This document shows positions 5,883-54,049 of a stretch of 64,000 nucleotides of DNA, in pieces. Location of the stretch: contig NZ_AP022568.1 in the NCBI RefSeq assembly GCF_010727605.1, positions 3,906,001 through 3,970,000 on the forward strand, written 5' to 3'. Source of the DNA: Mycobacterium simiae. GTDB lineage: Bacteria > Actinomycetota > Actinomycetes > Mycobacteriales > Mycobacteriaceae. Position 1 is the first letter of the stretch. Each line of letters begins with the position of its first letter. The notes under the pieces were generated by a model. It saw nothing but the letters and a program-made list of their open reading frames with translations. It searched no databases and was not told the DNA's origin. A program made the translations under genes and the position numbers.

Positions 5883-6677
5883 TTAGCGGTGGGTGAAATT
5901 GGGGGCGCGCTTCTCGACGAAGGCCGTCATACCCTCGGACTGATCGGCGGTCGCGAAAGTCGAATGGAACAGCCGACGTTCGTAGAGCAGCCCCTCAGCC
6001 AGGGTGGATTCGAAGGCGCGGTTGACGGCTTCTTTGGCCATCCGGGCCGCCGACAGCGACATCTGCGAAATGGTGGTCGCGACCGCCTTCGCCTCGGTCA
6101 GCAGGTCGTCGGCCGGCACCACCCGTGAAACCAGGCCGCTGCGTTCGGCTTCCTCGGCCCCGATCGTGCGGCCGGTCAGGATCAGGTCCATCGCCTTGGC
6201 CTTGCCGATGGCCCGGGTAAGCCGCTGGGAGCCACCCATTCCGGGCAGCACGCCGAGTTTGATCTCGGGCTGGCCGAACTTTGCGGTGTCGGCCGCGATC
6301 AACAGGTCGCACATCATCGCGAGCTCGCAGCCCCCGCCAAGCGCGTGCCCCGCGACCGCGGCAATCGTCGGGGTGCGGACCTCGGCCAATCTGTGCCAGG
6401 CGGCGAAGAAGTCGGCGCCGAACGCATCGGCGAATGTCAGGCCGGCCATCTCCTTGATGTCGGCCCCGGCGGCGAATGCTCGGGCCGAGCCGGTGATGAT
6501 GATCGCGCCGATTCCCGGGTCCCGATCGAATTGTGTCGCCGCACTGGTGACTTCGTTCATCACCTGGGTATTGAGCGCGTTGAGCGCTTGCGGCCGGTTC
6601 AGCGTGATGATGCCGACCCGCTGATCACGCTCGACCAGGATGGTTTCGTAGCTTGTCTCGCTGGTTGTCTCGCTCAC
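5883..6677 (-). CDS. echA8: Enoyl-CoA hydratase EchA8
   Basis: Protein of 264 residues, the usual crotonase length. It has the N-terminal LNRP motif near residue 24, the oxyanion-hole AAGADIKEM segment near 68-76, and [11 protein letters not shown] near 118 with the two catalytic glutamates in the GGGCE and PEI(K)LG regions. It hydrates trans-2-enoyl-CoA in beta-oxidation in the cytosol. It lies 12 bases downstream of echA9 and 9 bases upstream of a membrane hydrolase, consistent with one transcript. A short N-terminal repeat (SETTSET) precedes the fold and may be dispensable. Confidence 0.92.
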
Positions 6678-6689
6678 CGAACCGCCTTT

Positions 6690-7739
6690 CTAGAAACTTA
6701 AGTCGTCGTCGACCGGCGCAAAGTACGCGTCGATGTCGGCCGCGGTGACCGCGGCAAGGTTCGGCGGCGACCACTTCGGATCGCGATCCTTGTCGATGAT
6801 CTGCGCCCGAATTCCTTCTACCAGATCGTGTGAGCGCGCAGCGGCCGAGGACAGCCGATAGTCCTGCACCAGAACGTCTTCCAGCGTTTCCATCTTCGCG
6901 GCCCGGCGTATCGCCTGTAGCGTCACCGACACAGCGATGGGGGAGCGGGAGGCAATCAGCTCGGCGGCGTCGTGTGCCGCACTCACATCGTGAGCGCGCA
7001 GCGCGGCGATGATGTCCTCGACGGTCTCACCAGCAAAGCACTCGTCGATCCAATGCTGTTGCGCAGCAAGCTCACTGGCCGGCGGTTCGACGGCGTGGAC
7101 GGCCAGTGCCCCGTCGATCCCATCGTCGATGATCTTCGTGGTGAATGCGCCGAGTTGGTCATGCGGTACGAAGTGGTCGGCGAAGCCCAGCGCGATGGCG
7201 TCGGCCCCGGAGAACGGTGCCCCGGTCAAGGCGGCGTACAGCCCCAGCGCTCCGGGCGCCCGGGACAGCAGGTAGGCGCCGCCGACGTCGGGAACGAACC
7301 CGATGCCCACCTCGGGCATCGCGATCTTCGAGGTTTCGGTCACCACCCGGACGCTGGCGTGCGCGCTGACACCGACGCCGCCGCCCATCACGATGCCATC
7401 CATCAACGCCACATACGGCTTGGCATACCGGCCAATCTGAGCGTTGAGCAGGTATTCCTCCCGCCAGAATTTGCGGACCTCGACGCCATCCCGGCGCGCG
7501 CTGTGGTAGACGGCGACCACGTCGCCGCCGGCACACAGCCCGCGCTCGCCGGCCCCGCAGAGCACAACCGCGCGCACCGCGTCGTCGTCTTCCCAACGGG
7601 CCAGCAGCGGGCGCAGCGTCTCGACCATCGACTGGGTGAGCGAGTTGATCGCCTTCGGGCGGTTCAGCGTGATCAGGCCGATGCCGTTGTCGACACGGGT
7701 CAAAATCTCCGCGGTCTCGCCGCCGGACCCGTCGGTCAC
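6690..7739 (-). CDS. echA9: Enoyl-CoA hydratase/isomerase family protein EchA9 (3-hydroxyisobutyryl-CoA hydrolase type)
   Basis: About 349 residues. Crotonase landmarks are present: LNRPKAINSL near the N-terminus, AGGDV in the oxyanion region and MGGGVG, followed by PEVGIGFVPDVGG. The ~350-residue length and the PKWSP segment near the C-terminus are typical of 3-hydroxyisobutyryl-CoA hydrolases of valine catabolism rather than of plain hydratases, so the Ech name may understate its role. GTG codons at 7739, 7751 and 7763 are all in frame; 7739 best fits the spacing from an AGGAGG at about 7754-7759. It heads the echA9-echA8-hydrolase gene run. Confidence 0.87.
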   Translation of the reverse strand: MTDGSGGETAEILTRVDNGIGLITLNRPKAINSLTQSMVETLRPLLARWEDDDAVRAVVLCGAGERGLCAGGDVVAVYHSARRDGVEVRKFWREEYLLNAQIGRYAKPYVALMDGIVMGGGVGVSAHASVRVVTETSKIAMPEVGIGFVPDVGGAYLLSRAPGALGLYAALTGAPFSGADAIALGFADHFVPHDQLGAFTTKIIDDGIDGALAVHAVEPPASELAAQQHWIDECFAGETVEDIIAALRAHDVSAAHDAAELIASRSPIAVSVTLQAIRRAAKMETLEDVLVQDYRLSSAAARSHDLVEGIRAQIIDKDRDPKWSPPNLAAVTAADIDAYFAPVDDDLSF

Positions 7740-16619: not shown

Positions 16620-16806
16620 CTCGTCGTGCTCCTCGTCCTGTTGCTCCGCGTAACTGCGTAAGTCTGTGAACTCCGCCGATGGGAGTGCCTGGGTTCCGCC
16701 CCGTGCTGCCGCCCCGTTTTGCTCACGGCCGCTAATGCAGCAATACACGGTCCCAGCTGGAACCGTGCATTCATCCATGTTACCACCGTGGAAACTGCCG
16801 ATGACG

Positions 16807-17392: not shown

Positions 17393-18265
17393 GTGAGCGA
17401 ACTGCGGTTGATGGCGGTGCACGCCCACCCCGACGACGAGTCCAGCAAGGGCGCGGCCACTCTGGCCCGCTATGCCGACGAGGGGCATCGCGTGCTGGTT
17501 GTCACGCTCACCGGAGGTGAGCGCGGCGACATCCTCAATCCGGCGATGGACCTGCCCGACGTCAAGGAGCACATCGCCGAAATTCGCCGGGACGAGATGG
17601 CCAAGGCCGCCGAAATTCTCGGCGTCGAGCACACCTGGCTCGGCTTCATCGATTCCGGCCTGCCCAAGGGAGATCCGCCGCCGCCGCTGCCGGAGGGGTG
17701 CTTCGCGCTGGTGCCCCTGGAGCAGCCCGTCGAGGCCCTGGTGCGGGTGGTCCGCGAGTTCCGGCCGCACGTGGTCGTCACCTACGACGAGAACGGTGGC
17801 TACCCGCATCCGGATCACATTCGCTGCCACCAGGTTTCGGTCGGAGCGTACGAAGCGGCCGCCGACTTCGCCCGCTTCCCGGATGCCGGTGAGCCGTGGG
17901 CGGTGTCCAAGCTGTACTACGTGCACGGGTTTTTGCGCCAGCGGATGCAGCTGCTGCAGGACGAATTCGCCAAGCGTGGCGAGGAGGGCCCGTTCGGCCG
18001 GTGGCTGGAGTACTGGAAGCCGGAGCACGATCCGTTCGACAAGCGGGTGACCACCCGGGTGGAATGTTCACAGTACTTCAGCCAGCGCGACGATGCGCTG
18101 CGCGCGCACGCTACGCAGATCGATCCCAACGCCGAATTCTTCGCCGCCCCGATCGCCTGGCAGCAACGGCTCTGGCCGACCGAGGAATTCGAATTGGCCC
18201 GGTCCCGCGTTCCGGTTCGGTTGCCCGAGGACGACCTGTTCGCCGGAATCGAGGACCGCCAGTGA
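17393..18265 (+). CDS. mca: Mycothiol S-conjugate amidase
   Basis: Protein of 290 residues. The zinc site H-A-H-P-D-D-E-S (His12, Asp15) and the downstream HPDHIRCHQ motif with the third ligand identify the LmbE/PIG-L deacetylase fold of Mca and MshB. The length and the mycobacterial context (DUF4307 gene before, small membrane gene after) favour Mca, which cleaves mycothiol S-conjugates to mercapturic acids in detoxification. The GTG start follows an AAGGGGA site. It is divergent from the DUF4307 gene. Confidence 0.9.
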
Positions 18266-47340: not shown

Positions 47341-48414
47341 GTGAGCCTGAGCCTGGGAATCGTGGGCCTGCCCAATGTCGGCAAGTCGACTCTGTTCAAC
47401 GCCCTGACCCGTAACAACGTGGTGGCGGCGAACTATCCGTTCGCCACCATCGAACCGAACGAAGGCGTCGTCGCGCTGCCCGACCCGCGCCTGGACAAGC
47501 TGGCCGAGCTGTTCGGTTCCGAGCGGATCGTGCCGGCGCCGGTGACGTTCGTCGACATCGCCGGAATCGTGAAAGGCGCCTCGGAGGGCGCGGGGTTGGG
47601 CAACAAGTTTCTGGCCAACATCCGCGAGTGCGACGCGATCTGTCAGGTGGTGCGGGTGTTCGCCGACGACGACGTGGTGCATGTCGACGGCAAGGTCGAT
47701 CCACGCTCGGACATCGAGGTGATCGAGACGGAGCTGATCCTCGCCGACATGCAGACCTTAGAAAAGGCGATTCCGCGGCTGGAGAAGGAAGCCCGCAACA
47801 ATAAGGACCGCAAGCCTGTGCACGAGGCGGCCGTCGCTGCCCAGGCGGTGCTGGATTCGGGCAAGACGCTGTTCGCGGCCGGTGTCGACGCATCGCTGCT
47901 GCGCGAGTTGAACCTGATGACCACCAAGCCGTTCCTTTATGTGTTCAACTCCGACGAGTCGGTGCTGACCGACGAGGCCCGCAAGGCCGAGCTGCGCGCG
48001 ATGGTCGCGCCGGCCGACGCGGTGTTCCTCGACGCGAAGATCGAGGCCGAGCTGCAAGAGCTGGACGATGAGTCGGCGGCGGAATTGCTCGAGTCGATCG
48101 GGCAGACGGAACGTGGTCTGGATGCGTTGGCGCGCGCCGGTTTTCATACGCTCAAGCTGCAGACCTACCTGACCGCGGGCCCAAAAGAGGCGCGGGCGTG
48201 GGTGATTCACCAGGGCGACACCGCACCCAAGGCCGCCGGTGTGATCCACACCGACTTCGAGAAGGGCTTCATCAAGGCCGAGATCGTGTCCTTCGACGAC
48301 CTGGTGAACGCCGGGTCGATGGCGGCGGCCAAGGCGGCAGGCAAGGTTCGCATGGAGGGCAAGGACTACGTGATGGCCGACGGCGACGTGGTCGAATTCC
48401 GGTTCAACGTCTAA
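47341..48414 (+). CDS. ychF: Redox-regulated ATPase YchF (Obg family)
   Basis: Protein of 357 residues. The P-loop GLPNVGKST lies at residues 9-17, with DIAGIVKGAS near 73, a coiled-coil region, and the C-terminal TGS-like domain ending EFRFNV. YchF binds ribosomes and hydrolyses ATP. Its last 34 bases (48380-48413) recur exactly at 49737-49770, and a diverged version occurs at 49169-49231, so the 3' end marks a junction where foreign cassettes have inserted. The gene itself is intact. Confidence 0.95.
   Translation: MSLSLGIVGLPNVGKSTLFNALTRNNVVAANYPFATIEPNEGVVALPDPRLDKLAELFGSERIVPAPVTFVDIAGIVKGASEGAGLGNKFLANIRECDAICQVVRVFADDDVVHVDGKVDPRSDIEVIETELILADMQTLEKAIPRLEKEARNNKDRKPVHEAAVAAQAVLDSGKTLFAAGVDASLLRELNLMTTKPFLYVFNSDESVLTDEARKAELRAMVAPADAVFLDAKIEAELQELDDESAAELLESIGQTERGLDALARAGFHTLKLQTYLTAGPKEARAWVIHQGDTAPKAAGVIHTDFEKGFIKAEIVSFDDLVNAGSMAAAKAAGKVRMEGKDYVMADGDVVEFRFNV
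48380..48413 (+). repeat. ychF 3'-end direct repeat, copy 1 (native)
   Basis: This 34-bp stretch covers the last codons of ychF up to the TA of its stop codon. It is identical to 49737-49770. Two cassettes lie between the copies, so it behaves like an attachment-site or recombination junction. Confidence 0.85.
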
Positions 48415-48444
48415 GTCGAAGTAGAGCGCGTTCTTCGAGCACCC

Positions 48445-49083
48445 TCACGTGACGGCCTGGGCGAACAGCAGATGGGGTGCGTTGGCGTCGTCACTGATCC
48501 GCCGGTGTTCGACTGAAAGGCCGGTGCTGCGCAACGTGTCGATGACGTCCAGCACCGGACGCAGCTGGAACCCGTGTCCAGTGAACGGCAGTTTTGCCAT
48601 CACTTCGGGGTCGGCCAATCCGATGACCAGTCGACCCCGGCTGTTTATCACCCTGGCGAGTTCTCGGAATGCTCTGCCGAGCTCGGCGACGAAGTAGATG
48701 GTGTTGACCGTCATGACCCCGTCCAATGCCTTATCGGCGAAGGGAAGCTGCGTCATGGACGCGGAATGCAAAGACAGCCGCCCATTTTCGATGTCTGATC
48801 GATACCGTCCGGCGGCCTGGCTAAGCATCGTCTCCGACACTTCAATACCGTGAACACTGCCCGTCGGACCCACACTGTCGAGTAGAAATTTCAACCCCAC
48901 TCCGCCACCGAATCCGACGTCGGCCACCGCTGATGCTTCTTCTGGTTGGAGCGCCTGGGCGGCGCTTTGGATCAAACGTCGGTTGCCCCGGTTGAGCGCG
49001 GCACCAACGAGGCGTCCGCGTAGACCGCTCGGATGGCCGAGTTGCTTCGCAACACCCGCCATGACGGAATCCCGAACGCCCAT
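48445..49083 (-). CDS. Class I SAM-dependent methyltransferase
   Basis: Protein of 212 residues. SAM motif I is VADVGFGGGVGL near residues 53-64, followed by GIEVSE and a SMTQLPFADKALDGV motif near 110-125, typical of small-molecule (UbiE-like) methyltransferases. The substrate is unknown. The ATG at 49083 was chosen because upstream in-frame codons read through the relic ychF end on the other strand. It lies inside the block bounded by ychF 3'-end repeats and looks less GC-rich than its neighbours, consistent with acquisition. Confidence 0.8.
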   Translation of the reverse strand: MGVRDSVMAGVAKQLGHPSGLRGRLVGAALNRGNRRLIQSAAQALQPEEASAVADVGFGGGVGLKFLLDSVGPTGSVHGIEVSETMLSQAAGRYRSDIENGRLSLHSASMTQLPFADKALDGVMTVNTIYFVAELGRAFRELARVINSRGRLVIGLADPEVMAKLPFTGHGFQLRPVLDVIDTLRSTGLSVEHRRISDDANAPHLLFAQAVT

Positions 49084-49168
49084 CCCCCCACGGTAGGGCA
49101 CCCCTGCCGAAACAGCGCGACTACGACACCAACTCAGGGAAGGCTGGCGACTGCGCGATGATTTCGGG

Positions 49169-49231
49169 GCCGACGGCGACGTAGTCGAGTTCCGCTTTGA
49201 AACAACGTCTACATCGAAAGCCAAGGCATAG
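49169..49231 (+). pseudogene. Relic of a divergent ychF 3' end (copy 2)
   Basis: In frame, this fragment encodes A-D-G-D-V-V-E-F-R-F, the YchF C-terminal motif, then a different tail E-T-T-S-T-S-K-A-K-A and a TAG stop. At the DNA level it matches the ychF end with a few substitutions and a 5-base insertion before CAACGTCTA. No upstream YchF sequence is attached. It separates the methyltransferase from the SnoaL-like gene and probably marks an earlier integration or replacement event. Confidence 0.7.
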
Positions 49232-49299
49232 GCCCTTCCGGCTGGACAGGTGTCCAGCTATCGTGACCATCACGCTGATGGAAGGGCGATGGGGCAGAG

Positions 49300-49728
49300 A
49301 TGAGCAAGGTTCCGAGCCGGGAGGCTCGCTTAGCGCACGCGTCCAAGCACGCCGATCTGTGGAACGCGGGAAAGAAGGACGAGTGGGTGGCGTCATGGCG
49401 CACCATCTGTCCCGGCGAGGTCCGCATGTTCGACCCGGTCGGCACCGAGGAGAAACAGGGGTTCGCAGCCGCCACGTCGGATGCCTTCGACATGTTTCAG
49501 TCGATCCTCAAGATCAAGATGATTACGGTTCAGGTCAATGGGAACGAGATGGCATGGGTGTGCGAGAACCACTTCGGCAAGGAGCCGAACCTTGGAGTTG
49601 CATACAGTATCGAGACCTTCGCGTGGGACGACGACGGCAACCTGCTCATCAAGACGTACTATCCGATGCCGGAATCGGTCGGAGCCGAGGCGGACCCGTA
49701 CGCCCATCTGTTGGAGGGACAGCAGTAA
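49300..49728 (+). CDS. SnoaL/NTF2-like protein
   Basis: Protein of 142 residues of the nuclear transport factor 2 or SnoaL-like alpha+beta cone fold. An N-terminal helix pair contains KHADLWNAGKKDEWVASWR, followed by mixed strands with MFDPVG and a C-terminal DDDGNLLIKTYYPMPE strand pair. Members act as isomerases, cyclases or binding proteins; no catalytic Asp/Tyr set can be assigned with confidence. It sits between the diverged ychF-end relic and the perfect 34-bp repeat, so it is the second cassette at this junction. Confidence 0.75.
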   Translation: MSKVPSREARLAHASKHADLWNAGKKDEWVASWRTICPGEVRMFDPVGTEEKQGFAAATSDAFDMFQSILKIKMITVQVNGNEMAWVCENHFGKEPNLGVAYSIETFAWDDDGNLLIKTYYPMPESVGAEADPYAHLLEGQQ

Positions 49729-49736
49729 ATCGGTGA

Positions 49737-49770
49737 ACGGCGACGTGGTCGAATTCCGGTTCAACGTCTA
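49737..49770 (+). repeat. ychF 3'-end direct repeat, copy 3
   Basis: Exact 34-bp duplicate of 48380-48413, again followed by an in-frame stop (TAG at 49769-49771 instead of TAA). It begins 9 bases after the SnoaL-like gene's stop and closes the cassette region. Confidence 0.9.
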
Positions 49771-49833
49771 GGTGCCGACCCGAACTCTCGCCTTCTTCGG
49801 TTGTCGGTGGGGGTCTCTAGCATCGCGGTACTA

Positions 49834-49875: not shown

Positions 49876-50274
49876 GTGAAATTCGTCTCAACCCGCATCA
49901 TCACCGCTGACGTCCCGCGCCTCGTCGCCTTTTACGAGATGGTCACCGGCGTCTCGGCGGTGTGGGGCAACGAGTTGTTCGCCGAGATCCCGACGCCGGT
50001 TGGGGTGTTGGCCATCGGCAGCGACAAGACCGTTGCGCTGTTCGGTCGGGGATCGGCCGAACCGGCGGCCAACCGCAGCGCGATCATCGAGTTCATCGTC
50101 GATGACGTCGACGCCGACTATCAACGGCTCCGCGGTCAGGTCGCCCAGATCGTAACCGAGCCGACGACCATGCCCTGGGGCAACCGGGCACTGCTGTTCC
50201 GCGACCCGGACGGCAATCTGGTCAACCTCTTCACGCCGGTCACTGTCGAGGCACGCGCGAAGTTCGGTGTATGA
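49876..50274 (+). CDS. VOC (glyoxalase/dioxygenase-fold) family protein
   Basis: Protein of 132 residues with the paired beta-alpha-beta-beta-beta units of the vicinal oxygen chelate fold: RIITADVPRLVAFYEMVTG at the start and LLFRDPDGNLVNLF at the end, the last being the commonest VOC signature. Metal ligands are not obvious (no His at the first position), so it may be a resistance-type or binding member. The GTG follows CGGAGAA. It lies just outside the ychF-end repeat block. Confidence 0.8.
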   Translation: MKFVSTRIITADVPRLVAFYEMVTGVSAVWGNELFAEIPTPVGVLAIGSDKTVALFGRGSAEPAANRSAIIEFIVDDVDADYQRLRGQVAQIVTEPTTMPWGNRALLFRDPDGNLVNLFTPVTVEARAKFGV

Positions 50275-50285
50275 CCGATCCGGTG

Positions 50286-51176
50286 TCAATCCGATTGTGA
50301 CGCAAGGTCCTTCGCGACCGCAGCAAGAATTTCCGCGGCGTGACTGACGGCAATGAAGTGCCCACCGTCGGTGATCGGGTGCCAGATGGCTTCCGGGGTG
50401 CTGTCAGCGACGGATTTGTTGATGACCTCGGGTACGAGGGTGTCGGAGCTGCCCTGCCAGAAGTGAATCGGCCGCCGCACCTGGGTCAGGTCGAACGGCC
50501 ACGCTTGGTAGAGAAGCGTGGCGTCGACGACGAGTCCTGCCGAACCATGTCGAAAGCACTCGCGGCAGGTTGCCAGGAACGACATCATGACCTCGTCGTC
50601 GTCCAGCACCGCGCGGTCGGCCGCGTTCACCGATTTGATGATCGAGTTCGCGAACTGGTGCTCGAAGTGTTGCGCAGTCGCGCCTAGCAGCCAGTACATC
50701 AGCTTGAGTCCGGGGCGAAAGCCAAGCGCAAGGCGTCCACCGAGGGCGTCCACGCGACTTTGATACTGCGCGGCCCAATTGGCCCCGAATGTGCCGTAGC
50801 TGGCGCCACCGATCGATGCCACGTGGACCAGCCGCATGGGGTCGAGGTACGCGGCGGCGGCCAGGGCAAAAGGGCCGCCCTCAGACCAGCCGGTCACGGC
50901 GAAACGCTGCGCGGCGAAGGAGTCGGCCAGCTGCAGCAGATCGTCGGCCCACGACTTGAAGCTGCGGCCAGGCTGGGGATCGGACGCGCCGATGCCCGGC
51001 CGGTCCGCGCACACGAATCGCAGACCGTTGATCGTGGCGGCCGTATCGAACAGCCTCGCTTCCAGCCGACTCGACGGGCCGCCGTGGTTGTGGAGCACAA
51101 GCGGTCCACTGGGGTCGCCGGCCTCGAGGTAGGTGACGGTCCGGTGGCCGATCGACAGACTGCCTTCGCTGAGCAC
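50286..51176 (-). CDS. Alpha/beta-hydrolase
   Basis: Protein of 296 residues. HGGPSSR near residue 32 forms the oxyanion loop, the nucleophile elbow is G-W-S-E-G-G near 97 and a catalytic His is likely in DGGHF near 270. This is a standard cytosolic alpha/beta-hydrolase of unknown substrate. The GTG at 51176 is preceded by GAGGAGG; a longer start at 51203 lacks this. It converges on the VOC gene with 11 bases between. Confidence 0.8.
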   Translation of the reverse strand: MLSEGSLSIGHRTVTYLEAGDPSGPLVLHNHGGPSSRLEARLFDTAATINGLRFVCADRPGIGASDPQPGRSFKSWADDLLQLADSFAAQRFAVTGWSEGGPFALAAAAYLDPMRLVHVASIGGASYGTFGANWAAQYQSRVDALGGRLALGFRPGLKLMYWLLGATAQHFEHQFANSIIKSVNAADRAVLDDDEVMMSFLATCRECFRHGSAGLVVDATLLYQAWPFDLTQVRRPIHFWQGSSDTLVPEVINKSVADSTPEAIWHPITDGGHFIAVSHAAEILAAVAKDLASQSD

Positions 51177-51307
51177 CTCGCCTCCTCGGCAATCCGCTGG
51201 CAACGTTCACACCACTGGCAGGGTGGCGTCTCGCACTATGCCAAACCGGATGACGGCATGGGGGTTGGAGACTGGCGGTGACGGCGCGAGCCGACCATTG
51301 TGAGGAG

Positions 51308-51670
51308 ATGGCGACGGTAAAGCAGAAGAGACTGTGGGCCCGCACGGTGGCGGCGGGCTGGCTGGCCCTGGCCGCCTGCGGACTGAGCGGCGAGATTGCC
51401 GGTGCCGCCCCGATTCCCGTCCCCGCCAACCACTGGTGCCCTGGTCAGCAATGGGATCCGGCCTGGGGCACCGACTATCACTGGGACTGGAATCAATGCC
51501 ACGACTGGCAAGGCCCGGCGCCGGCCGGGTGGGGACCGTGGGGTCCGCCGCCGCCGTGGGCACCGCCGCCGCCCCCAGCACCGGCCTGGGCGCCGCAGGC
51601 GCATCTGATGTGGAACCCGACAAGGGGCGGGTGGGGGTTCTTCAACAACGGGATATGGACTCCGGTCTGA
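51308..51670 (+). CDS. Small secreted Trp/Pro-rich protein
   Basis: Protein of 120 residues. A basic start and hydrophobic core (~8-35) end in A-G-A-A-P, a likely signal peptidase I site; an earlier L-A-A-C could instead act as a lipobox. The mature part is rich in Trp, Pro and Asp, with two cysteines (HWCPG and NQCHD) that could pair and a Pro-rich stretch near 75-95. Similar short secreted proteins are common in mycobacteria with no known function. The ATG follows TGAGGAG. Confidence 0.72.
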   Translation: MATVKQKRLWARTVAAGWLALAACGLSGEIAGAAPIPVPANHWCPGQQWDPAWGTDYHWDWNQCHDWQGPAPAGWGPWGPPPPWAPPPPPAPAWAPQAHLMWNPTRGGWGFFNNGIWTPV

Positions 51671-51715
51671 CGCCACGCGGGTTTCCGATTGTCGCTTCAC
51701 ATTCACCACCTCCAG

Positions 51716-51732
51716 TACTACCGTCGGTAGTA
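51716..51732. promoter_or_regulatory. TetR-like operator palindrome
   Basis: TACTACCG-T-CGGTAGTA is a perfect 17-bp palindrome 20 bases before the VOC gene start at 51753. The size and position suit a TetR-family repressor site. No TetR gene lies nearby, so the regulator would be encoded elsewhere. Confidence 0.5.
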
Positions 51733-51752
51733 ATCGGCTTCGTGGGGGAGGC

Positions 51753-52307
51753 ATGATGCGCTGGCGCGGCGTGAGTCACGTGGAGTTCGCGGTGCTCGAC
51801 TACGACCGCTCGATCGCCTTCTACGACGCATTGTTCGGCTGGCTGGGGTACAGCAGTTTCTCCTCGATGAACATGGAATACCAGTCGGTGTACTACATGA
51901 CGCGAAACGTCAACCCGCACAGCTACATCGGCGTACAACCGGCGCGTACCGGCAAGAAATTGACACACAGCGACCAGGCGGTGGGAATCAACCACATTGC
52001 GCTGTGGGCGCGCAGCCGAACAGAGGTCGACCGTTTTCATACGGATTTCCTGATCGATCGCGACATCCCGGTGACCGACGCACCAAAGCGGTACCCGCAA
52101 TATTGGCCGGGCTACTACGCCGTGTTCTTCGACGACCCGGTGAACGGCATTCATTGGGAACTGGCGTGGATTCCGAAAGTCCCTACACCACTCCAACTTT
52201 GGGATTTTTATCGCGCAATCCGCGGTTTCGCCAGCGGCCGGGCGGATCTGGCGCGCACGGTACCTGGGGTGCTGCTGCAGGCGCGGCGGACGTTGCCGCA
52301 TCGGTAA
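51753..52307 (+). CDS. VOC family protein (glyoxalase/bleomycin-resistance type)
   Basis: Protein of 184 residues. The first VOC module starts GVSHVEFAVLDYDRSIAFYDALF and the second INHIALWARSRTEVDRFH, each with a metal-position His (VSHVEF and INHIAL); NGIHWELAW near 140 supplies the usual acidic ligand. A metal-dependent activity is therefore plausible. ATG codons at 51753 and 51756 follow a GGGGGAGG site. A palindromic operator lies immediately upstream, so expression is probably inducible. Confidence 0.82.
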   Translation: MMRWRGVSHVEFAVLDYDRSIAFYDALFGWLGYSSFSSMNMEYQSVYYMTRNVNPHSYIGVQPARTGKKLTHSDQAVGINHIALWARSRTEVDRFHTDFLIDRDIPVTDAPKRYPQYWPGYYAVFFDDPVNGIHWELAWIPKVPTPLQLWDFYRAIRGFASGRADLARTVPGVLLQARRTLPHR

Positions 52308-52343
52308 GCGGCCCGCGCGGCGCTCGCCGGGCTACAGTGAGGC

Positions 52344-52703
52344 GTGGTCCGTAACGACGGCACCCCGACGCCTGGAGAACCCGATGCCCGAGCCGCGGCG
52401 ATGAACAAGCGCGAGGAAGACCTCGAGCTGTGGGAGTCCCAACTCGAACGACGTGAGTTCCTGCTCCGCCGTCGGGACAAAGTGGCCGACCAGCGCGACC
52501 GGATTGCCGACGAGCGTGAGCTCGAGGCGGACAAGCGCGAGAAGCTCGCCGACGAACGGGAAGGGACGGCGGCCGAGCGGGAACGCGAGCGCCTACGACG
52601 CGTCGACGAACGCGTCGATCGTGAGGCGGCGCGAGCCCGCCGGGAGCAGGCTGACGTGGACCGCCAGATGATCGAGGGCGAACCAGGCCGCGACGACGGC
52701 TGA
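52344..52703 (+). CDS. Charged coiled-coil protein
   Basis: Protein of 119 residues, nearly all predicted coiled coil from residue 20 on. It is dominated by Arg, Glu, Asp and Ala with heptad-like RDKVADQRDRIADE and ELEADKREKLADE repeats. No signal, membrane helix or catalytic motif is seen. A TACAGT hexamer (52333-52338) lies directly before the GTG, supporting a real leaderless gene. The function is unknown; the charged repeats make database hits unreliable. Confidence 0.65.
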   Translation: MVRNDGTPTPGEPDARAAAMNKREEDLELWESQLERREFLLRRRDKVADQRDRIADERELEADKREKLADEREGTAAERERERLRRVDERVDREAARARREQADVDRQMIEGEPGRDDG

Positions 52704-52795
52704 ACCGTTTTGTGAAATATGCATTCCTGTTACTTATTTGCGCCAAGTGCGGCACAGGTCATTATGTAATTTACACGTGATGCGGACCACAAAGT

Positions 52796-52824
52796 TTGGA
52801 TCGCTAACGATGAGTTGCTAGTGT
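52796..52824 (+). promoter_or_regulatory. Predicted promoter of the NlpC/P60-like gene
   Basis: A -35-like TTGGAT (52796-52801), a 17-base spacer and a -10 TAGTGT (52819-52824) place +1 at about 52831, two bases before the ATG at 52833. The surrounding DNA is markedly AT-rich for this window. Confidence 0.5.
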
Positions 52825-52832
52825 CCCTGCGC

Positions 52833-53372
52833 ATGTTTGTTCTCGAAACATTGGTGTCGCTGATCAACCAAGTCTCAGGGACGCCTTATATTCCGGGTGG
52901 AGATTCCCCCGCCGGTACCGATTGCTCTGGACTTGTTTCATGGGTTGTAAATGCCGCAACCGACCGTCCGGTATTCGGGAATCGATTTAATACTGGAAAC
53001 GAAGAATCCGCCTTGTTGGCACGCGGCTTCCAATATGGAACGGCCCCCAACGCGTTGGTTGTTGGCTGGAACGGGGGCCACACCGCGGTGACGCTGCCGG
53101 ACGGAACCCCGGTATCCAGTGGTGAACGCGGCGGGGTGCGCATCGGTGGTGCCGGCGCCTACCAGCCCGGATTCACCCACCATATGTTCTTGCCGATGCC
53201 GCCGGAGGGGGAGGGTCCGCAGCTGCCGCCGCCGGACGCGCCTCCGCCGCCGCCGGACGCGCCTCCGCCGCCGCCGGACGCGCCGCTCGTCTTGGTCGAT
53301 TCGGTCGTACCGGCGCCGGCGCCGGCTCCAGAATTGTCACCGCCCGGTGACCCCGCAATTCCGCACCCCTAA
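52833..53372 (+). CDS. NlpC/P60-like cysteine peptidase with Pro-rich tail
   Basis: Protein of 179 residues. The papain-like domain has the catalytic Cys in GTDCSGLVS near residue 34 and a likely His in GGHTAV near 88, the pattern of peptidoglycan endopeptidases, including the N-terminal domain of mycobacteriophage lysins. No signal peptide is evident, which also fits a phage-derived lysin. The C-terminal ~50 residues are Pro/Ala/Asp-rich with tandem PPPDAPP units. The AT-rich start region and lower GC suggest horizontal origin. The ATG at 52833 fits a leaderless promoter. Confidence 0.72.
   Translation: MFVLETLVSLINQVSGTPYIPGGDSPAGTDCSGLVSWVVNAATDRPVFGNRFNTGNEESALLARGFQYGTAPNALVVGWNGGHTAVTLPDGTPVSSGERGGVRIGGAGAYQPGFTHHMFLPMPPEGEGPQLPPPDAPPPPPDAPPPPPDAPLVLVDSVVPAPAPAPELSPPGDPAIPHP
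53226..53282 (+). repeat. 21-bp tandem repeat in the NlpC/P60-like gene
   Basis: About 2.7 near-perfect copies of a 21-base unit encode PPPDAPP. In-frame unit gain or loss would change the length of the proline-rich tail. Confidence 0.75.
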
Positions 53373-53725: not shown

Positions 53726-54049
53726 ATGATCTTCATCGTCGTCAAGTTCGAGACCAAACCGGAGTGGACCGACCGCTGGCCGGACCTGGTCGCCTCCTTC
53801 ACCGCGGCCACCCGCGCCGAGGAGGGCAACCTGTGGTTCGAGTGGTCGCGCAGCCTGGAAAACCCCGCCGAGTACGTCTTGGTCGAGGGCTTCCGCGACG
53901 GCGATGCCGGCCGCGTCCACGTCACCAGCGAGCACTTCAAGCAGGCGCTGGAAGAGCTGCCGCCGGCGCTGCAGTCCACCCCCAAAATCATCAGTCAGAC
54001 GATCGACGCCACCGGCTGGTCGGAGATGGGCGAGATGCGGGTCGGCTAG
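53726..54049 (+). CDS. ABM-domain protein (putative quinol monooxygenase)
   Basis: Protein of 107 residues with the ferredoxin-like ABM fold: MIFIVVKFETKPEW at the start, EEGNLWFEWSRS near 40 and YVLVEGFRDGDA near 57, ending in a HFKQALEELP helix. Such dimeric proteins act as cofactor-free monooxygenases or as heme or quinol-related enzymes. The ATG at 53726 begins at the first strand; an upstream in-frame ATG at 53693 adds no fold. Its stop overlaps the stop of the convergent YiiX-like gene. Confidence 0.78.
   Translation: MIFIVVKFETKPEWTDRWPDLVASFTAATRAEEGNLWFEWSRSLENPAEYVLVEGFRDGDAGRVHVTSEHFKQALEELPPALQSTPKIISQTIDATGWSEMGEMRVG

Follow-up and report, generated by a model that had tools for sequence, protein, structure and literature searches.

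Downstream of ychF in Mycobacterium simiae lies a short array of gene cassettes separated by copies of the 3´ end of ychF itself. We examined this array in a stretch of 64,000 nt (assembly GCF_010727605.1, contig NZ_AP022568.1, positions 3,906,001 to 3,970,000 of the forward strand; hereafter the window, numbered from its first base) and compared it with ychF loci of other genomes and with viral contigs. We judge it probable, at roughly 0.78, that the 3´ end of ychF is an attachment site (attB) for large serine recombinases (LSRs) of phages and satellites, and that recombinase-less cassettes are stacked behind it in arrays. The original prediction, made from the window alone, was of site-specific integration into the end of ychF, and this is supported by an empty site, by varied cargo and by recombinases in larger insertions.

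In the window, ychF (47341-48414, + strand, 357 amino acids, the protein having 96% identity to YchF of locus L001) is the target gene. As had been predicted, its last 34 bases (48380-48413) recur exactly (34/34 identical) at 49737-49770, with stop codons TAA and TAG, respectively, directly after the two copies. The prediction of a single cassette between two repeat copies was right about the exact pair and missed a third, altered copy. A profile of the ychF end, trained on 35 rows (including five duplicates from the surveyed loci and one from the window), detected three sites in the 64 kb and no more, every one on the + strand. Site 1 (48379-48414) is the 3´ end of ychF itself, the last 33 nt and the stop, and contains the first repeat copy. 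Site 2 (49172-49211) begins GACGGCGACGTAGTCGAGTTCCGCTTTGAAACAACGTC, has an element-type right half and reads DGDVVEFRFETTSTSKAKA before its stop, while site 3 (49736-49771) is the distal copy. The window therefore holds two one-gene cassettes between ychF and a glyoxalase-like gene. The first, between sites 1 and 2, carries an S-adenosylmethionine-dependent methyltransferase (48445-49086, - strand, start codon uncertain) that matches Pfam Methyltransf_11 and has homologues inside cassettes at L087 (81% protein identity) and, more distantly, at L113 (49%). The second, between sites 2 and 3, encodes a SnoaL/NTF2-like protein of 142 amino acids (49300-49728, + strand). The predicted cargo was thus borne out for the methyltransferase; the SnoaL-like protein had no sequence match in Pfam or PDB, and a predicted structure of moderate confidence (predicted local distance difference test, pLDDT, 70.7) matched the ketosteroid-isomerase/SnoaL/NTF2-like fold. 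The other four models had pLDDT values of 38-53.

The single-copy empty site that an insertion implies was found in M. genavense (L008), where one ychF end is followed, about 85 bp after ychF, by the counterpart of the glyoxalase-like gene that lies behind site 3 in the window. The joined outer flanks of the window align to L008 through the junction (573/766 columns, gaps counted), and site 3 with its flank is identical to the L008 ychF end and flank in 206/311 aligned columns. Given this match, the resident right end most probably lies at site 3, and the sequence to the right of site 1 would have arrived with the insertion. The glyoxalase-like gene of the window (49876-50274, + strand) is a common right flank of the insertion zone, and its homologue at L097 sits before the distal site. 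The objection that relatives carry the same genes without the repeat does not hold for the relatives as a group; the two exceptions are homologues of the SnoaL gene in L001 and of the methyltransferase in L012, both in loci that have weak site matches only and no site above threshold.

The repeat recurs downstream of ychF far beyond chance. From a scan for YchF we took the best 80 ychF loci, recognised the gene's tail in 73 and dropped seven. In these 73, the profile gave 41 extra sites in 648 kb downstream versus 1 in 741 kb upstream, with at least one further downstream site in 24/73 loci. Loci with extra sites include members of Mycobacterium, Nocardia, Rhodococcus, Gordonia, Dietzia, Prauserella, Janibacter and Corynebacterium. 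In a sample of 198 Mycobacterium genomes, at least 195 had one match or more (stricter filters, among the matches listed). Thirty genomes with many matches and 49 others (48 with two matches, one with one) were searched again, and extra sites were counted by hand from coordinates as matches on the same strand and contig no more than 25 kb from the presumed ychF match; a further match near ychF was seen in 28 of the 30 and 35 of the 49. At least 66 of the 198 genomes therefore have extra ychF-end sites, including L002 (G011), L011 (G009) and L016 (G002), a lower bound because the closer look was confined to the genomes searched again and these three. Different cargo flanked by the same repeat was found in many genomes, as had been anticipated. 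Some further matches were noticed. L091 (G175:C9) has two ychF-end-like sites, at 1711 and 2098 (reverse-complement coordinates), on a contig that differs from that with the genome's ychF array, and four ychF-end matches lie on Nocardia farcinica NCTC11134 "plasmid 2" (L102), which at 2.66 Mb is of chromosomal size though labelled a plasmid. The unannotated human faecal phage records MT836021, MT835996, MT838115 and MT838561 match the ychF end, which may be ychF itself or a phage attachment site (attP).

Recombinases were expected in larger insertions, and LSRs were found there. Insertions of ~10-17 kb with an LSR adjoining the distal site (attR) are present at L081, L083, L085, L086 and L087 (open frames of 457-544 amino acids) and at L084, where the LSR is split in two pieces. 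The LSRs of L081 and L083, the two that were checked, have Pfam Resolvase and Recombinase domains. In L081, the LSR falls in a PHROGs integrase family and there are matches to a head protein (E 4e-8) and, strongly, to a phage family of unknown function. Searching the 198 Mycobacterium genomes (E 1e-60, 8 candidates per genome scored) gave 25 listed genomes, in nine of which the LSR had at least 52% identity. Eight of the nine have it beside a distal ychF site, the match in G139 containing one TGA, and the ninth, G090, has an LSR fragment with a stop, away from ychF. The other 16 have LSRs at 34-39% identity, on another contig or far from ychF. An order-wide scan of 397 genomes (4 candidates per genome scored; G139 common to both sets) gave the same picture, with a site by profile for 4/5 LSRs at 50% identity or more, a native right half with TTTCGCTTCAACGTGTGA seen by eye for the fifth (L144), and a site for none of three LSRs at 40-42%. 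The joined ends of the 8 LSR elements have 9-16 of 24 dyad matches at a central GT. Matches to the LSR were found in 23 phage records too, with less than 60% identity (at most 47% among 15 listed). An LSR tree of 19 proteins was not used as evidence, its protein selection having missed L146-L149. The likening of the ychF end to tRNA-type integration stands as regards site-specific insertion in a gene end; the best-supported enzyme is an LSR rather than a tyrosine integrase. Some elements with an LSR at the right end also have one or two tyrosine-recombinase genes close to their left end, as seen in L081 (1382-3384) and, near ychF, in G061 and G209.

The most direct evidence for the mechanism is free attP. 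Ten viral loci were reached through the LSR, and attP sites were sought in six viral contigs and found in four (L152, L153, L156 and L159), unoccupied beside the LSR. Both halves of the free attP are element sequence, forming a dyad centred on GT with 14, 16, 18 and 18 of 24 matches, respectively, as against 8-10 for the next best centre and a mean of ~6 (maximum 14) in scrambled controls (3000 each). Translated in the YchF frame, each right half continues up to a stop, as VEFRFQVTSGSGKA in L152, VEFRHR in L153 and L159, and VEFRSGITSGAKR in L156. By eye, L158 has the same layout with the tail VEFRVQRT and a stop. L151 and L157, with right halves of native type, look integrated, no site was seen in L155, and the sequences of L154 and L160 end at the LSR start.

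The integrated sites show a corresponding anatomy. Distal-end sites share an arm of ~22-24 nt (GATGTTGTTCGGCAACGGAACGTG) before the ychF-derived core, and information drops to background outside the arm (71 sites). Similarity to native ychF typically stops after TTCCG at left-end sites and starts at GGT at right-end sites, placing the probable crossover inside GGTSGAGTTCCG. The claim that the target gene is left intact needs refining, as the gene end is often rewritten, with a tail other than the common FNV-stop in 24/129 loci of a set enriched for arrays (e.g., HGATTKPK, FGSTSTSKG or FQATSGQQKKA before the stop), two of the 24 (L071 and L072) being FNVT, with one added residue only. Four loci, L090 (3873, reverse-complement coordinates), L109 (~3197), L111 (~3165) and L082 (3610), have in common a different right-end arm, built around AAACGCCCAGC or a similar sequence, that possibly marks another element family at the same gene end. 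L109 also has a resolvase-like fragment near ychF, in a 2.2-kb segment. At L016, the site at 16716 is preceded by ~30 bases of older ychF sequence (VRMEGKDYVMA), more than the core requires.

Many insertions are small. Among 117 inter-site segments (from loci partly picked for several sites, with genes called by a simple open reading frame caller), the median length was 943 bp, 80 were no longer than 1500 bp and ten were below 250 bp. Pfam matches for 40 cassette or island proteins comprise toxin-antitoxin and similar pairs (VapB with PIN, HigB with HTH, Phd/YefM with ParE, DUF433 with a PIN-like protein), AbiTii and Abi_2, SnoaL, glyoxalases, methyltransferases, a/b hydrolases, an aquaporin, a short-chain dehydrogenase, PhnA and DUF1801, and four of the 40 had no Pfam match. 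Individual cassettes recur as units with exact ends. The SnoaL cassette of the window reappears as a 562-566 bp unit at L094 (window 49170-49772 to 197-801, 88% identity; ychF of the pair 81%) and L103 (49168-49771 to -4 to 597, 87%; ychF 80%), homology ending at the repeats; it lies directly at ychF in L103 and second in the window and L094. The same cassette is also in L119 and L093, and the SnoaL gene in L001, L099 and L129. A methyltransferase cassette is present at full length in L095 and L113 (87.8%; ychF 82.9%), that of the window matches L087 at 79.3% (ychF 84.1%), and other recurring cassettes were seen at L110, L118 and L142. The aligned cassette part was more alike than ychF in 20 of the 54 pairs listed and not so in 34; the 20 point to exchange between species.

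The small cassettes and the LSR elements have ends in common. A profile of 62 right-end half-sites from loci outside the 8 LSR loci (background n=7020, 99% below 4.2, maximum 9.5) scored all 8 LSR attRs at 6.5-14.0 (that of L083 placed by hand at 17481). Scores were 7.1-16.0 for six viral sites, 6.2-10.3 for three sites from the order-wide scan, and -0.8 and 0.0 for two sites in LSR loci that lie away from the LSR. That a small-cassette profile recognises LSR attRs suggests that many, not all, small cassettes share the end of the LSR elements. There is also a hint, not a rule, that new elements enter arrays next to ychF. At L083, ychF is followed first by an LSR element and then by another cassette, and at the site behind the LSR element the element arm continues into a tail of the FGSTSTSKAKA-stop type, a layout that fits this order of entry; at L087, a methyltransferase cassette stands directly behind an LSR element.

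We propose that the last ~36 bp of ychF would act as attB for an LSR clade of small prophages or satellites, whose attP would be an imperfect palindrome centred on the GT in GGTSGAGTTCCG. Crossover would swap the last ychF codons for an in-frame tail and stop supplied by the element, or for a copy of the native tail, and the original ychF end would be pushed to the far side of the insert. Small recombinase-less cassettes, often of one gene or one toxin-antitoxin pair and about half of them with the same half-site, would stack downstream, most likely moved by an LSR in trans or being elements cut down to their cargo. We infer catalysis, the exact crossover base and movement in trans, and likewise that an LSR moved the window's own two cassettes. 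A broader reading, in which the ychF end anchors integron-like gene capture in Actinobacteria on serine integrases, with LSR phages or satellites providing the enzyme in trans for one-gene cassettes that have minimal attP-type ends, the C-terminus of YchF, a universal ATPase, re-encoded at each insertion and YchF varying with the array, is offered tentatively and falls somewhat short of even odds.

Several observations weigh against an LSR as the mover of the small cassettes. Close LSRs lie at ychF in 8/198 genomes versus extra sites in at least 66, so that most cassettes are without such an LSR in their genome. In leave-one-out scoring, only 30/62 small-cassette half-sites pass the 99% background, and some LSR sites (6.5, 8.4 and 7.1) score below the background maximum of 9.5. 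The dyads of L135 (11) and L136 (9 of 24) are no better than at other centres, leaving six of the eight LSR elements that stand out. At the joined ends of 10 small cassettes there is no GT-centred dyad (5-10 of 24; control mean 6.1), with 6 of 24 for the SnoaL cassette of the window, and the window's right end at site 3 is ychF-like on the arm side, as in other small cassettes. A simple motif scan of the window gave no recombinase and no LSR motif, in line with the original prediction that no integrase lies inside; together with the lack of a dyad at the SnoaL cassette ends, this is why we do not class the window cassettes as autonomous LSR elements. Tyrosine recombinases also occur near such sites. 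The Streptomyces satellite phage MulchRoom (also written Mulchroom; L101) has, at 7344-7378, an attP that matches the ychF 3´ end at 94.1% over 34 nt and adjoins a tyrosine integrase (6514-7269), which appears to use the ychF end. Y-recombinase (PF00589) genes lie near the left end in 3/8 array genomes (G055, G061 and G209), inside large LSR elements. Another enzyme may therefore move some cassettes. Those with ychF-like sequence on the arm side may have been moved in trans by an LSR, their ends having changed, or by a tyrosine integrase such as that of MulchRoom, or may have arisen from larger elements by deletion.

It is accordingly conceivable that the small cassettes, those of the window included, were moved by a MulchRoom-type tyrosine integrase that acts in trans or has since been lost and that uses a long core identical to ychF, with the LSR elements coming to share the target by convergence. 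The 34-bp identity of the window copies, longer than an LSR core needs, and the ten cassettes without a dyad fit this, as do MulchRoom and the Phage_integrase domains just described. We nonetheless think it unlikely: the MulchRoom integrase had no tblastn match at E 1e-3 in the loci searched with it, 5/8 array genomes have no Y-recombinase near the array, and an LSR-type arm is found on about half of the small-cassette ends. No convincing tyrosine recombinase emerged when the window and the first 80 ychF loci were searched by regular expression. We regard as similarly doubtful the explanation that each small cassette is an integrated LSR element that has suffered internal deletion, with nothing mobile now. 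Degenerate sites, the split LSR of L084 and the lack of any recombinase called in the scanned small cassettes, save for the L109 fragment, are what decay would leave; against it, one and the same cassette, almost constant in length and with exact ends, turns up in different genomes and at different positions, and 20 of the 54 listed pairs are more alike than ychF. A purely local process around ychF, tandem duplication or homologous recombination without a site-specific enzyme, would account for the few copies that hold more ychF than the core (L016 at 16716, and site 2 of the window with its ychF-like lead). It leaves unexplained the empty site, the unrelated, foreign cargo, the conserved half-sites with a non-ychF arm of 22-24 nt upstream of the core, and free attP on viral contigs, and we reject it as very improbable. 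Integration by LSRs at the ychF end, with small cassettes moved by them in trans or reduced from larger elements, is the reading that we prefer.

Further along the window, the interval 50286-53372 may be an eroded portion of the variable zone that is older than the rest, with no recognisable site left. It contains genes for an a/b hydrolase, a proline-rich protein, a second glyoxalase-like protein, a charged coiled protein and an NlpC-like protein. The gene at 51753 has a homologue among the cassette genes of L123, and that at 52344 has one in a cassette of L115 (by eye only). An ABM-domain gene (53729-54049, + strand), common to L001, L008, L013, L020 and L131, is the right-hand anchor.

If correct, the tail of ychF is a little-noticed landing site through which mycobacteria and their relatives pick up and exchange genes, which would explain species-to-species differences in the genes after ychF in mycobacteria. 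It would also show that arrays of one-gene cassettes can be built in another way than by integrons, would provide actinobacterial genetics with a defined serine integrase family with a conserved target, and raises the question of whether a changed YchF tail matters. The listings of an open-licence literature search gave no report in Actinobacteria of the 3´ end of ychF/engD/Rv1112 as an integration site, which is not proof of absence. By term count, ychF and EngD do not occur in the main text of PMC8092301, which in its available part covers 18 attB sites of M. abscessus, or of PMC3986857, and attP, attB and ychF have 0 occurrences in the main text of the MulchRoom paper (PMC10690885). A mention of ychF in PMC8460829 proved to be a gene list, not an integration site.

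Among known systems, several share features with the ychF arrays. Pneumococcal prophages insert between dnaN and ychF, on the promoter side, at a 14-bp repeat, according to the available part of PMC6375853. They are alike in lying next to ychF and differ in using the promoter side and an unrelated site. MulchRoom is alike in its attP and differs in its tyrosine integrase. The serine-integrase prophage phiRv1 and Bxb1, with its central dinucleotide GT, resemble the ychF elements in having the LSR gene beside the attachment junction, a short core and, at ychF too, a GT centre. The serine-integrase prophages of M. abscessus disrupt open reading frames (PMC8092301, available part). At ychF, by contrast, the reading frame is preserved and cassettes become stacked. 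Integrons are arrays of small cassettes, several with toxin-antitoxin genes, in which the same cassette occurs in different positions. The ychF arrays likewise consist of small, mostly one-gene cassettes shared at different positions, with mobility judged from sequence only; they differ in that their sites are serine-recombinase dyads and gene-end copies. No IntI was found at the array, where PF00589, a general rather than an IntI-specific domain, is near the site in only the three array genomes named above, and attC-like folding was not seen across 6 sites (z = 0.76, 0.09, 0.47, 0.32, -2.49 and -1.71; two of the six lean to folding). The arrays thus have an integron-like layout and are not integrons by the features tested. 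The closest known system is the staphylococcal cassette chromosome (SCC), which enters the 3´ end of the housekeeping gene orfX/rlmH by integration of the LSR type. In the ychF arrays, one LSR is seen near the distal site in each element inspected, and no ccrAB pair was noticed, no search aimed at ccr having been made. A composite SCC island holds copies of the integration site and a recombinase-less member, the pseudo-SCC (PMC3900703, available part). Like SCC, the ychF arrays sit at a housekeeping gene's 3´ end, have copies of the site in tandem and include members without a recombinase; they differ in their target, their actinobacterial host, the location of the LSRs in phage-like elements, the many cassettes below 1.5 kb (80/117) and the rewriting of the gene's C-terminus.

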